Assembly (NCBI RefSeq): GCF_014083945.1
Contig: NZ_CP046444.1
Coordinates: forward strand, 992,001-1,056,000
Direction: 5' to 3'
Origin: Granulicella sp. 5B5
GTDB lineage: Bacteria; Acidobacteriota; Terriglobia; Terriglobales; Acidobacteriaceae
DNA: 64,000 nt
The stretch's first letter is position 1, and the number at the start of each line of letters is the position of its first letter. Under the pieces are notes generated by a model, which made no database searches, had not been told where the DNA came from, and was given only the letters and a program-made list of their open reading frames with translations. A program made the position numbers and the translations under genes. Below are positions 13,238 through 54,426 of the stretch, in pieces.

Positions 13238-13270
13238 CTACTCCCTACTCCCCATTCCCTACTCCCTGCC
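13238..13270 (+). repeat. Heptamer tandem repeat (ACTCCCT type), copy 1
   Basis: Several degenerate units of CTACTCC / ATTCCCT in tandem, just after the ubiE stop codon. Similar tracts occur at 41641, 50942 and 54411. Confidence 0.7.
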
Positions 13271-41640: not shown

Positions 41641-41680
41641 TCTCCTACTCCCTACTCCCAACTCCCTACTCCCTACTCTT
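41641..41680 (+). repeat. Heptamer tandem repeat (ACTCCCT type), copy 2
   Basis: Five to six near-perfect units of CTACTCC / AACTCCC. Read on the minus strand, the repeat supplies the TAG stop codon of the XRE regulator (41673-41675). Confidence 0.75.
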
Positions 41681-48934: not shown

Positions 48935-50890
48935 CTACCGCCCCATGGCCTCCGTCACTAACCACCGCGTCAGCTCCAGTCCACCCGCAAAGTTGTCCTC
49001 CTCCAACGGGGCCTTCCTTCCATCGGTGTACTCGTTGTAGACCCACGGGTCGACGTTCGCATACACCAGCCCATGCCCCGCATGGGCCACGGCCATCATC
49101 GTGTCGCCCTTGTCCGTCAACACCGCCTTCGCCGCACCGGACACCGTGATCGTGCAAGTCTCCTTCATCAGCGCCTTGTGCGCGTCATGGAAGATCCCGC
49201 CCGTCCCCGCGGCAATCGGCACAATCGTGTTCGCGTAGTCGTTGTTCAGTTCGCGGTTGCGCGTTACCGCGTTGTAGTGGATGCCGAACCGGTCGCTCAA
49301 AATATCCAGGTGCGTCTGGTCGGCGTGCTCGGAGTCATTCTCCATCATCACCAGTTCACCGCCCTGCTTCACCCACGCCTCGATCGCCGCCGCACTCGCC
49401 TCATCCATGTAGTGAGTATTCGGGTTCAGCGCCGGAATATCCGGCGACACGATCACATAGATCGAAACACCTTTCAGATCCGCAGCTGTCGGCGCATGGT
49501 CCAGCACCTCCGTCCGCATCCCGTACGCGCGGAACATCCGTCCCCACACCGAGTAGCCGCTGTTCGCGTCGTCATCCCACTTGTAGTGAAAGAGCTGCGC
49601 GCTCCCTGCCGGCGTCTTCCGCATCTGCGAGTTGAACCAGCCGTCCACCAGCACCGTCTTGCCGCGCGCCTTGCGCATCAACTCCGCTGCGTCCTTGCGC
49701 TGAGTGATCTCGCTCAACGCCAGCAAATACGCGCCCACGCCCTTCGCATCGTTGTCGCCGACTTCCTCGCCAATATAGTAGTCATACGTGCCGCTGCGAT
49801 ACGGCGTCCCGCCCAGCCCAGCCACCTTCACCGTGCCCGACAGCGTCCCGTCCGGCTTCACAAAGTGCTGCTGAATCCCCTCCCAGCCCTTCGTCACATT
49901 CTGCTCCAGCGACATCGGCGCGACGCCCAGCCGCACACCCTTCGCCATCGCATACACAAACATGCAGCTCGCCGAGGCTTCCAGATAGTTCCCCTTCTGC
50001 CCGCCCTTGTCCATCACCTGCCACCACAGCCCGCTCTGCGCATCTTGATAGCGCGCCACCGTCTGTAGCACGTTCCGCGCCACGTCCTCCAGCGCCAGCC
50101 GCTGCGGATCGGTCTCCGGCATCCGGTCCAGTACGTCCACCAGCGCCATCGCGTACCAGCCCATCGCCCGCGCCCACACCTCCGGGCTCAACCCCGTTTG
50201 CTTGTCCGCCCAACCCATCTTCTTCGAATCGTCCCAGCCATGGCGCAGCAGCCCCGTCTTGCGGTCGCGCATATGCTCATCCATCAGCAGCAACTGCCGC
50301 ACAGCCGAATCCAGATCGTCCTGCTTCGCAAACGTGCGCCCGTAGCCCTCCATAAACGGCTCGGCCATGTACGCGCCATCCAGCCACATCTGGTTCGGAT
50401 AGATCCCCTTGTGCCAGTACCCGCCCGCCGAGTTCTTCGGCTGAGCATGAACCTGCTCTTCCAGAAACGTCGCGGCCTTGTAGTAATTCTCCTTCTGCAA
50501 CACCCGATACATCGTTAGCACACTGCGCCCCATCTCGATATCGTCCAGCGAGTGCTGATCCACCGGGAACGGCTTGCCGCCGCCGAAGTCGATCACCCCG
50601 TCCTTGTTCACCGAGCGGTCCACCGCCGCCTTCACATACTGGAACAGCCGCCCATCGCCGGTCGCACGCCACTCCGCGATCATGCCATCCAACAGCACAC
50701 CCTCTTCATAGGTCCACTCACCCGGCCGCTTCACCGTATCGATGCGGCCATCCGGCCAAGCTGTCAGCGCCCGCTCCAGCACCGGATCACTCTCACTCAC
50801 CCCACTCGTCTGGACTGTCGTCTGCCCCACCGCAACCACCGCAAACCAACCCGCAACACACACGACACCCAGCTTCAACATCGGCTTCAT
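48935..50890 (-). CDS. GH105 unsaturated rhamnogalacturonyl hydrolase-like protein with extra C-terminal domain
   Basis: A 651-residue secreted enzyme with a signal peptide (about 1-22, VVAVGQ). The GH105 (alpha/alpha)6 barrel spans about 40-385 and holds the catalytic motif NQMWLDGAYMAEPFMEGYG, with D171 matching the general acid Asp of YteR, plus DQHSLDDIEMG (111-121) and LSPEVWARAMGWYAMAL. GH105 removes unsaturated galacturonic acid from rhamnogalacturonan-lyase products. The C-terminal part (about 395-651, KTVLVDGWFNSQ; IYVIVSPDIPALNPN; GGELVMMENDSEHAD) resembles a glutamine-amidotransferase-like fold, as in DUF4350 proteins. GAGG eight bases before the ATG at 50890 decides the start. It follows the collagen-like gene by 85 bp on the same strand. 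Confidence 0.9.
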   Translation of the reverse strand: MKPMLKLGVVCVAGWFAVVAVGQTTVQTSGVSESDPVLERALTAWPDGRIDTVKRPGEWTYEEGVLLDGMIAEWRATGDGRLFQYVKAAVDRSVNKDGVIDFGGGKPFPVDQHSLDDIEMGRSVLTMYRVLQKENYYKAATFLEEQVHAQPKNSAGGYWHKGIYPNQMWLDGAYMAEPFMEGYGRTFAKQDDLDSAVRQLLLMDEHMRDRKTGLLRHGWDDSKKMGWADKQTGLSPEVWARAMGWYAMALVDVLDRMPETDPQRLALEDVARNVLQTVARYQDAQSGLWWQVMDKGGQKGNYLEASASCMFVYAMAKGVRLGVAPMSLEQNVTKGWEGIQQHFVKPDGTLSGTVKVAGLGGTPYRSGTYDYYIGEEVGDNDAKGVGAYLLALSEITQRKDAAELMRKARGKTVLVDGWFNSQMRKTPAGSAQLFHYKWDDDANSGYSVWGRMFRAYGMRTEVLDHAPTAADLKGVSIYVIVSPDIPALNPNTHYMDEASAAAIEAWVKQGGELVMMENDSEHADQTHLDILSDRFGIHYNAVTRNRELNNDYANTIVPIAAGTGGIFHDAHKALMKETCTITVSGAAKAVLTDKGDTMMAVAHAGHGLVYANVDPWVYNEYTDGRKAPLEEDNFAGGLELTRWLVTEAMGR

Positions 50891-50941
50891 GAACATAACC
50901 TCAACGCCAACAGCATACCGGAGCACCTGCACCCTCGCTTT

Positions 50942-50973
50942 TCTACTCCCTATTCCCTACTCCCTATTCCCTG
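50942..50973 (+). repeat. Heptamer tandem repeat (ACTCCCT type), copy 3
   Basis: Alternating CTACTCC and CTATTCC units, four to five copies, filling most of the gap between the collagen-like gene stop and the GH105 start. Confidence 0.75.
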
Positions 50974-50975
50974 TT

Positions 50976-53900
50976 TCACTGGCACTCCAGCGCCGTCCAC
51001 ACCCCCGCCGCCGTCCCCGACGCGCCCGAGATCGCATAGTCTACAAACTGCCCCGGCCCCACAATTACACTGCCCGTCGCCGTGCAGCTCACATTCGTCG
51101 CCGCGTTGCACGTCAGCGCCGAGTTCACCATGGCACCCGGTGTCCCCACCCGCAGCGTCACCGTAATCGTGTTCGACTGCTGCGAGTAGACATTCAGCTG
51201 CGTCGCCGTGCACCCCATCGGCACCCACGCCAGCACACCCGTCGTCGCCGTCGTCCCCGTCTCCGTCGTGCTTGTGTTGGGTGAGTTCACCCCGTAAAAC
51301 ATCGTGTTGAAGTTCACCGCATGGAACATCGCGGCAAAGTTACCGCTTGCCGTTCCGCTGCTGCTGCCTCCATTGCCCGCCGCACCCGCCGTACCTTGCG
51401 GAATCCCGAAGTTCAGCACCGCCGCGTTCGCTGTACCAACGTTCGTCACCGTAGCCGCAGCCCCTGCCGCCAGCGTCGTCACTGTGCCAACCGTCACCGT
51501 AGCCGCTGACCCGGCCGCACCGGTCGGCCCTGCGCCGCCCGCCTGCGCCAGCACCGTCCACGCAGACGGACTGACGTCCGGCTCCGCGTTCGTGTTCTGC
51601 GCCAGCGCCAGGTACGTCGACCCCGTATACGTCACCGCATCATTCACCGCATAGGTTGCCGCCGGCAACCACGCACTACGGAAATTCACCCCCGCCAGCC
51701 CCGTCGCGCCGGTAGCGCCATTGCTTCCCGCAGAGCCCTGCGAACCCGTTGCACCCGTCGCTCCAGCCATTCCCTGAGACCCCGCCACACCCTGCGGCCC
51801 CTGCTGCGCCAGCAACGACCAGTACATCGGCGACACATCCGGTTGCTGACCACTATTCCCGGCCACCAGCGACACCCAACTCGACCCCAGCCACGTCACC
51901 ACATCGCCCACTGCATAGTTCGTTGCCGAACTGTACGCCCCCCGATACACCAACCCCGGCGTCCCCGCCGCACCCGTGGCACCCGTCGCTCCTATAGCTC
52001 CCGTAACCCCCTGCGCGCCCGTAACCCCCTGTGGCCCGGTCGTGCCCGTCGCGCCCGTAACTCCCGCAACTCCTTGGGCCCCTGCCTGTCCCGCGACGCC
52101 TTGCAACCCCTGCACGCCTGTCGCGCCCACAGCTCCAGCCGCTCCCTGCAACCCCTGCACGCCCGCCGGCCCCTGAGGACCCGTCGCTCCCTGCAAACCC
52201 TGCGGCCCAGCCGATCCCACCAGCCCCTGCGCACCTGTCGCGCCTGTGGCTCCGGCCACACCCTGAACACCCTGCGCTCCCTGAGCGCCCTGCGTCGTGA
52301 GCACACCCCAATACGTCGGCGACACATCCGGCTGCTGCCCCACATTGAATGCCGCCCGCGACACCCAGCTCTCTCCCAGCCACGTCACCACATCGCCCAG
52401 CGTGTACTCCATGGCCGAGCTGTACGCCCCCTGATACACCATCCCCGGCAGCCCCGTCGCACCCGTCGCACCAGTTGCTCCTGAAGTCCCGGTAGCCCCA
52501 TTCAATCCACTCAACCCCATCAGCCCCGTCGCGCCTGTGGCTCCAATCGTTCCCGTCGCGCCCGTTGTCCCGTTCTGAGCAAACATCGCCCAGAACGCCG
52601 GGCTCGCGCTCGGAGTATTGCCAAGGTTATTGCCGCTCAGCGACACCCACGCCGCCCCTGCCCACGTCACCCCATCCCCCGCGTTGTAGTTCATCGTCGA
52701 GTTGTACGCGCCAATAAAGTTCAATCCCACAGGCCCCTGCACTCCGGTTGGCCCCAGCGGTCCCTGCAACCCGGTCGCGCCCGTCACGCCCGGAATCCCC
52801 TGCGCCCCGGCCTGCCCCGCAGGCCCTTGCGCGCCTGTGATCCCCTGTTCACCCGGCGGCCCCACCGACCCCGGCGAGCCCGTCGCTCCCGTCGGCCCCG
52901 GCGAGCCCTGCAACCCCTGCACACCCTGAGGCCCCTGCGCCGTCAGCTCACCCCACATGCCCGGCACAAGCCCCGGCGTGTTGCCCACGTTGAAGCTCAT
53001 CAGCGACGCCCAGCTCGCCCCATCCCACAGCACCACATCGCCCAGCGTATAGTTCGTCGTCGACTGGTACGCCCCGCGATACACTAGCCCCGGCGATCCT
53101 GTCGCGCCTGTCGCCCCGGCAACGCCAGTCGCTCCCGTCACGCCCTGGATGCCAAACCCCTCCGGCCCCTGCTGACCTGTAGCGCCCGTCGCCCCGGCCA
53201 CACCGGTCGCGCCCGCAGCCCCCGGCGACGCCAGCAGTCCCCAAGTCCCCGGAGCCGCTCCTGGCGTATTGCCGTGGTTGTTCGCCACCTGCGACACCCA
53301 CGTCGCTCCAGCCCACATCACCACATCGCCCGCACTATAGTTCGTCGTCGACTGATACGCCCCCTGATACACAAACGCCCCCGACACCCCTTGTAACCCC
53401 GGAGCTCCGGTCTCTCCAGTCGCACCCCTGGGGCCCGTAGCACCCGCCACTCCCGCAACACCCTGCAAACCTGTAGCACCGGTTGCCCCGGCAACACCCG
53501 TTGCGCCCGTTGCTCCTGCCGCACCCGCGACACCTGTAGCACCCGTAGCTCCTGCCGCTCCAGACAATCCCGCCAAACCCGGCGCTCCAGTAGCTCCAGT
53601 TGCTCCCGTCGCACCCACCCCGCCACTCGAGCCCCCAGCACTCCCCACCAGCGCAATCATCAGCGACGGCGCATGGCTCGTCTCATCATTCTCTTTGCTG
53701 TCAAACTGCACCGACACCCCACTGCCCGCCGTCAGCGCCAGCCCATAGTTCGGAGTCCCGCCCGCCGCCGTGCCGCTCACCCACTGCTGCACCTCGCTCG
53801 TCACATCAAATGTGACAAACTCCCCCACCGCGCCCACATTCTCGCTCGCCAGCACTGAGCCCAGCCCCGGCAGCGTCTGATACGTCACGCCCAGCTCCGT

Positions 53901-54257
53901 CCACGCGCCCTGCACCGGCTGCACACTCACCGAGCCGCCCGCGTCCGCCCGATTGCAGTACACCGTCAGCGTCGCCTTTGCGATCTGCCCCGCCGTCGTC
54001 CCCGCCGGCAGCGTGCCCAGATCGAACTGCATCAGCGCTGAATACCCGCCGCCCACATCCAGATTGCTCAGTGTCCCCGCATTCACCGTCGGCTGCGCGC
54101 TCGACACATGCGCGTCACCTACCAGCGTCGCCTGCTGCGCCTGCACCCCCCACACGCACAGCATCGCCAGCAACCAGACCACAGTTGCGCGCAACAAAAC
54201 ATCCGCTCTGCCCCCGCGTCGGAGCTTGCCGTCCAAATCCCGCCGTCCTTGCAACAA
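50976..54257 (-). CDS. Giant collagen-like secreted protein with six carbohydrate-binding-like modules
   Basis: 1093 residues. A signal peptide (about 20-40, ending VQAQQ) is followed by a DNRLRE/CBM96-like beta domain (about 42-203). Collagen-type Gly-X-Y tracts (GAT, GVA, GPQ, GLQ) follow, interrupted by six modules of about 50 residues at 295-344, 391-440, 512-561, 606-655, 769-818 and 857-905. Each reads YxGAYxSxxxYxxGDxVxWxGxxWVS then NxGxxPxxxPxxW, the aromatic pattern of CBM5/12 chitin-binding modules. A motif typical of phage tail fibres (about 919-957, [13 protein letters not shown]) and a Cys-containing C-terminal head (about 970-1093) complete it. The start is uncertain: 54257 is TTG, and TTG or GTG codons nearer the signal peptide are possible. 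It is likely a trimeric surface fibre that binds polymer; this is inference. Confidence 0.88.
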
Positions 54258-54410
54258 CGATCACAACTCAACGACGCACGTTGCCGCTGGCCTCCAACTC
54301 TGCGCCATGCGGTTCGCGGACAACACCAAAACTCATACAGCTAGGGGATTACTCAGTTGTAGCCGTTCACCCCCACAAAATCAACCCCCGCATCTCTTCG
54401 CTACTCCCTA

Positions 54411-54426
54411 CTCCCCACTCCCTGCC
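54411..54426 (+). repeat. Heptamer tandem repeat (ACTCCCT type), copy 4
   Basis: CTACTCCCTACTCCCC followed by ACTCCC, about 30 bases upstream of the permease start. Confidence 0.6.

Follow-up and report, generated by a model that had tools for sequence, protein, structure and literature searches.

A modular collagen-like protein encoded in Granulicella sp. 5B5

We analyzed a 64,000-nucleotide stretch of the Granulicella sp. 5B5 genome (contig NZ_CP046444.1, positions 992,001 to 1,056,000), here called the window, in which an open reading frame of 1093 codons at 50976..54257 encodes a long collagen-like protein, referred to below as the fibre protein. The gene and all its parts lie on the minus strand. 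The frame was called from a TTG start, and the N termini of homologues suggest that the true start is the TTG at codon 8 (~54236). Residues 1-40 (54138..54257), with basic residues, a hydrophobic core, and a VQA-QQ stretch, were assigned by eye, with no predictor, as a putative Sec-type signal peptide. A DNRLRE/CBM96 domain follows at residues 41-201 (53655..54137), scoring 63.1 bits with Pfam PF24517 (cut-off 26) and 85.6 bits with NCBIfam NF033679 (cut-off 34). No catalytic domain was matched in the protein in the Pfam scan.

The whole protein matched the Pfam Collagen family (PF01391) with 173 bits, above the cut-off, and contains 142 Gly-X-Y triplets in nine runs of at least four, the longest being 38; in 500 shuffles of the sequence, no run exceeded 7 triplets and no total exceeded 22. 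The first run, of 29 triplets, spans residues 209-295 (53373..53633) and is followed by a stretch of eight plus seven triplets with an IQ break (residues 346-392, 53082..53222). Runs of 24 (residues 442-513, 52719..52934), 15 (residues 563-607, 52437..52571), 38 (residues 657-770, 51948..52289), and 13 triplets (residues 820-858, 51684..51800) come next, and two short runs of four triplets occupy residues 907-918 (51504..51539) and, directly after the beta linker described below, residues 955-966. Gly-Ala-Thr makes up 37 of the 142 triplets. A triple helix rises 0.286 nm per residue, and by this arithmetic the rods would total ~120 nm if all 142 triplets were triple-helical.

The tracts are broken by six modules of 48-50 residues. 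Compared with the whole protein, the CBM_5_12 family gave 62.2 bits (cut-off 26.2) over six stretches. When the modules were scored singly in a genome search, three reached E <= 0.001 and one passed the cut-off, with 27.8 bits; a profile built from 64 family modules gave six matches in the Granulicella sp. 5B5 genome.

The C-terminal part starts with a beta linker ending in LNFGIPQ (residues 919-954, 51396..51503), which shows strands in the structural model and is 86% identical to that of the nearest fetched orthologue (locus L015). We regard it as a candidate trimer-forming segment. The head itself (residues 974-1093, 50979..51338) was modelled by AlphaFold as an all-beta domain of jelly-roll type, and its four Cys residues are invariant in 61 aligned rows. 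Compared as a predicted monomer, it shows similarity, with Z scores in the middle range, to heads found at the ends of collagen stalks. These data are in agreement with the layout proposed in an earlier reading made from the DNA letters and their translations (the sequence-only reading), namely Gly-X-Y tracts broken by six repeats of about 50 residues between an N-terminal DNRLRE-like domain and a C-terminal head.

In a simple pairwise count against the single orthologue L015, nonsynonymous divergence (dN) was 0.162 and synonymous divergence (dS) 0.906 over the whole gene, with high dS values in the collagen tracts and module 3. dN lay well under dS in the DNRLRE domain, modules, linker, and head, and the difference was weakest in module 1 (0.339 versus 0.705).

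The modules are predicted to share the CBM5/12 fold but lack the chitin-contact tryptophan

Module 5, modelled alone with short flanks, reached a predicted local distance difference test score (pLDDT) of 96.6, and module 6 showed a CBM5 fold in AlphaFold model 1. Both models favor a CBM5/12 fold in these two modules, and the CBM-like fold presumed by the sequence-only reading was thus recovered. In structural comparisons of the module, 8kec and the chitinase module ChiC (1wvv) stood level by Z at the top. We then considered 866 family modules, collected from the fibre protein and its 120 listed homologues with a profile made from the six fibre modules (domain E < 1e-3), which may miss more divergent modules. 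The core aromatics are retained in this alignment, and Asn31, Gly33, and Asp15 are strongly conserved polar positions.

According to an excerpt of PMC3701571, the surface residue Trp687 of chitinase A1 (ChiA1) is of major importance for the binding of chitin. The three best PDB alignments (1ed7, 4tx8, and 4ilv) have Trp in this column, whereas the 866 family modules, including the six of the fibre, have none (one Phe and one gap). The position is taken by Asn in modules 1 (residues 296-345, 53223..53372), 2 (residues 393-441, 52935..53081), and 3 (residues 514-562, 52572..52718), by Gln in modules 4 (residues 608-656, 52290..52436) and 5 (residues 771-819, 51801..51947), and by Ala in module 6 (residues 859-906, 51540..51683). 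Gln679, likewise named for ChiA1 in the title of a paper cited by PMC8449059, falls within an insert absent from the family profile. Other aromatics do occur, with His at column 32 in 338 modules and Tyr at column 42 in 178. The fibre modules have the predicted fold and the core aromatics of chitinase CBM5/12 modules (ChiA1 1ed7, ChiC 1wvv, and SmChiB) and differ from them at the Trp687 position. As judged from the alignment, chitin binding of the ChiA1 kind is not supported.

The same module type occurs between collagen runs in phage tail fibres

Module 5 alone matched 43 phage records at E <= 0.01. Of the 40 that were listed, 29 carry the annotation tail fibre or minor tail protein, and one is called a host specificity protein. 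The remaining ten are annotated as DNA polymerase, hypothetical, or collagen-like, and for several of these (C119, Sf12, Sd1, and Rogue1), the RefSeq twin names the same place tail fibre. Their hosts include E. coli, Streptomyces, Flavobacterium, Caulobacter, and Tunturibacter. From the listed records we picked ten by hand and added Tunturi_3 (n = 11), a set that is not a random sample because of this choice and because Rogue1 and C119 are close kin. In eight of these 11 proteins, from phages of E. coli, Streptomyces, Mesorhizobium, Flavobacterium, and Tunturibacter, the module is flanked on both sides by Gly-X-Y runs of at least five triplets; the Caulobacter, Pelagibacter, and Tunturi_3 phage proteins have no run of that length. 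The Trp687 column was covered in 18 of 20 matched phage stretches, again with no Trp, so the fibre shares with these tail fibres (Rogue1, C119, A7_1, IME08, and Tunturi_5 gp29) both the Trp-less module and its position between Gly-X-Y runs. The phage genes differ in sitting among virion genes in the records examined, and in the head: none of 71 pattern-matched stretches in viral contigs encodes a relative of it. The DNRLRE domain is not foreign to phages, since a Bacillus phage record matches this part at 34%. Pfam found no family in Tunturi_3 gp18, the only phage protein so scanned. From this pattern we infer a host gene that draws on a set of tail-fibre parts.

The closest phage look-alike found here is gp29 of Tunturi_5 (L086), a tail fibre protein from a Tunturibacter phage of 309 kb. 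The 655 residues read contain four Gly-X-Y runs together with nine module stretches, of which two are partial. A term search of the main text of the Tunturi virus paper found mention of neither tail fibres nor collagen (PMC11924767). The top structural match of the module, level with ChiC, lies in cyanophage A-1(L) in a protein taken as gp33; a section of PMC10966104 describes the matched region as a joint domain by which the fibre is anchored to the baseplate, and it is not the part shown there to bind the host.

Related designs differ in their parts. Streptococcal phage Tal also spaces CBMs with collagen-like linkers in one adhesion protein, whereas its CBM folds are others and it belongs to a phage baseplate (PMC9437275, in part). 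The eBAP3 fibres of extracellular contractile injection systems combine collagen-like shafts with lectin domains, in their case beta-propeller lectins and a TNFR-like domain in an injection-system component (excerpt of PMC12923769). With bacterial collagen-like proteins such as Scl1/2, Lcl, and BclA the fibre shares long, uninterrupted Gly-X-Y runs, and it differs in that six modules break up the tract as a whole; the NCBIfam scores for Lcl, SclB, and SclA were 160.7, 155.2, and 125.9 bits against cut-offs of 500, 325, and 400.

The fibre family is concentrated in Acidobacteriaceae

A search with the fibre protein scored 7995 candidates, 3728 of which passed 1e-10, a figure inflated by the collagen sequence. 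Our homologue list holds the best 120 of these by score, limited by length. All three Pfam domains are present in 118 of the 120, and the 121 proteins, counting the fibre, carry 4-16 modules each. Most of the listed names are "collagen..." or "hypothetical protein". P0088 of Tunturibacter empetritectus, a "DNRLRE domain-containing protein" of the same family, is additionally labelled chitin-binding type-3, and the missing Trp calls for caution in reading chitin binding from that label. The fibre is thus a member of a lineage family already present in databases under domain names, such as the annotation-only "DNRLRE domain-containing protein" of Acidobacteriota.

We used the head as a family marker free of collagen bias. 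It was found in 44 of 300 Acidobacteriaceae genomes, with a single match in 43 and two weak ones in G002, and in 12 of the 20 listed Granulicella genomes. Sampling over the phylum gave 27 of 396 genomes, 26 of them Acidobacteriaceae. Compared with the head, the modules are more widespread, with matches in 35 of 297 genomes from the phylum, representing 14 of 166 genera. The 29 named head loci are mostly from Granulicella, Edaphobacter, Bryocella, and unclassified Acidobacteria; two, labelled Rhodanobacteraceae and Verrucomicrobia, originate in a single metagenome study of a bog, and their binning may be wrong. Five loci (L017, L021, L031, L036, and L043) are truncated by a contig edge and five (L018, L022, L024, L028, and L040) have short frames of 214-554 residues, so module counts in these ten are lower bounds. 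In L018, L022, and L028, the head-bearing frame has only 348, 214, and 303 residues though the contig continues, and the gene looks interrupted or misassembled.

The claim that the design is undescribed stood in part. We found no description of the family, and no functional study of DNRLRE-collagen homologues such as P0088, in the open-licence literature on Acidobacteria, collagen-like proteins, DNRLRE, and tail fibres; the plan of CBMs and collagen linkers as such is known from the streptococcal Tal protein cited above. In the excerpts of Acidobacteria genome papers, passages on collagen concern collagen binding and collagenases (PMC3174227 and PMC8841776).

The Granulicella sp. 5B5 genome, a single contig of 3.93 Mb, has two DNRLRE-domain genes at E <= 0.001. 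The second, at ~3.667 Mb (locus L014, 2093-4468, minus strand), encodes a shorter DNRLRE-collagen paralogue whose single module-like stretch scores 15.6 bits, short of the Pfam cut-off, and whose C terminus is different; a phage Tail Collar domain protein follows it. Divergent from the paralogue, L014 4728-6989 (plus strand) encodes a TPR-repeat protein, hydrophobic in its N-terminal half, which we take to be reminiscent of TMTC-type O-mannosyltransferases; that it glycosylates the Thr-rich collagen is speculation.

The adjacent GH105 gene is not a constant partner

Directly downstream, 43 bases after the fibre stop, lies a YteR-like GH88/GH105 gene on the same strand (48935..50932, minus). 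Its product matched PF07470 with 335 bits and, in the PDB, 4wu0 (E 4e-82) and YteR 1nc5 (E 6e-81); this bears out the GH105 enzyme of the sequence-only reading, and an N terminus that is signal-like by eye suggests that it is secreted. A WLDG stretch, whose Asp is presumably catalytic in GH105 enzymes of the YteR type, aligns with 4wu0. The C-terminal part is DUF4350-like, its 30.1 bits just short of the 30.4 cut-off.

We scored GH105 as adjacent when it lay on the same strand with its match start within ~1.2 kb of the head, the widest case being Granulicella paludicola. Among the 29 named loci, 11 have GH105 next to the head. The genome survey covered the 30 strong-head genomes of two genera and left aside 14 weaker-head genomes of other genera; GH105 was adjacent to the head in 11 of the 30 and lay at another place in 6, and the other 13 gave no match at E <= 1e-60. 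The matches in G264 and G182 are partial. The 29 loci overlap the 38 surveyed genomes, so the two adjacency counts are not independent. Three of eight headless Granulicella genomes (G158, G188, and G226) have retained a GH105 of 68-71% identity whose 1.5-kb flanks contain no Gly-X-Y run of at least eight triplets, and several loci retain flanking genes such as PGM, which lies upstream in 19 of the 29, without GH105. The suggested pairing with a pectin enzyme is therefore true of this window and loose elsewhere: the two genes show synteny that is either ancestral or recurrent, with losses or gains on several occasions, and do not form an obligate system. The 12 window neighbours that we scanned have metabolic, signalling, or no domains, and none has a virion domain.

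Interpretation of the fibre

We consider the protein a probable, hitherto undescribed surface fibre and not an established chitin adhesin. We favor, by a modest degree, the view that it forms homotrimers which Acidobacteriaceae secrete as a surface or matrix fibre, built as rods and beads with beads of tail-fibre type. In such a fibre, the Sec signal would export the chain, the beta linker and jelly-roll head would set the trimer and its register, and the Gly-X-Y tracts would then form stiff rods with six clusters of three CBM5/12-fold beads between them. The DNRLRE/CBM96 domain may hold the cell-proximal end to the cell's own envelope or exopolysaccharide, and the beads could either make weak multivalent contacts with a glycan, not with chitin in the ChiA1 manner, or serve as rigid joints. 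The 18 binding sites per trimer of the sequence-only reading are arithmetic on a putative trimer and putative binding. A Solibacter collagen-like protein is reportedly expressed and forms triple helices.

Several observations weigh against a secreted trimeric fibre. No lipobox, LPXTG, or autotransporter anchor was seen by eye in the protein, and the mean predicted template modeling score (pTM) of AlphaFold model 1 was only 0.53. Foldseek found no match of the head in the PDB at E <= 0.001, and the head profile gave one PDB match, at E 0.32, that is, no close relative with known function. Pro occupies only 15 of the 142 X positions and 9 of the 142 Y positions, and because of this low content, an unmodified triple helix could be weak.

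If the beads were purely structural, acting as register locks and bend points while only the head or DNRLRE domain binds, the joint role in A-1(L) would fit; we consider this unlikely, though it deserves real weight. The tie by Z between 8kec and ChiC speaks against it, the A-1(L) section of PMC10966104 reports no host-binding test of the joint alone, and the conserved Asn31, Gly33, and Asp15 could equally well belong to a glycan-binding site or to a trimer interface. An extension of the surface-fibre reading, which we hold to be distinctly unlikely, is that Acidobacteriaceae and their phages share one fibre toolkit, the host beads binding the cell's own exopolysaccharide and cross-linking the colony matrix while those of Tunturi_3 and Tunturi_5 bind the same glycan. 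On this view, the beads would recognize a self glycan instead of chitin, and phage adsorption could face competition from the host fibre.

The proposal of the sequence-only reading, a chitin- or cellulose-binding adhesive fibre that ties the cell to fungal or plant polymer with GH105 acting on the same substrate, appears improbable to us. Aromatics such as the His of column 32 and the Tyr of column 42 might provide a surface elsewhere on the module, but the Trp687 column has no Trp in any family module, Gln679 lies in the missing insert, coliphage tail fibres carry the same module type, and 19 of the 30 genomes have GH105 at another place or give no match to it. A prophage tail fibre or remnant is largely refuted and very improbable. 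Tail families make up 14 of the best 25 of 47 PHROGs matched, the modules are common to tail fibres, and 99 viral predicted structures, many of collagen or tail proteins, matched at E <= 0.001; collagen composition accounts for many of these PHROG and structural matches, and a whole-protein tblastn search returned two short partial phage matches. The signal-like N terminus, the scanned neighbours, the frequent upstream PGM, and the lack of a head in the 71 viral stretches all argue against a phage gene.

The surface fibre that we favor would bear on the attachment and matrix of common soil Acidobacteriaceae, which are little described in the literature searched. Mostly single-copy, conserved, and probably secreted, with a clean modular plan, it lends itself to direct genetic and glycan-array testing, and beads common to tail fibres of phages infecting the same family offer a route to the ligand.

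Minor observations around the locus

In L018 12424-15115, genes for Hpt-like, receiver, and hybrid histidine kinase proteins are convergent to the fibre/GH105 locus, the receiver and kinase being assigned from domain matches; 11 of the 29 named loci have an Hpt-like open reading frame no more than 7.5 kb away. L034 13688-14755, near the locus, encodes a bacterial deoxyhypusine synthase family protein (PF01916, E 5e-93). A GH105 relative at G250:C1:2980781-2982616 has an in-frame TAG.

An intergenic heptamer repeat, (AGGGAGT)n, occurs at 13242-13267, 41649-41674, 50947-50972, and 54398-54423 of the window. With at most one mismatch, the repeat has 11 matches in the window, all on the minus strand, a number reached in 0 of 100 shuffles. 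Genome-wide, AGGGAGTAGGGA has 90 exact matches (67 reverse and 23 forward), compared with 0 for the reversed control; every one of the first 45, which span 242 to 1365 kb, lies on the minus strand.
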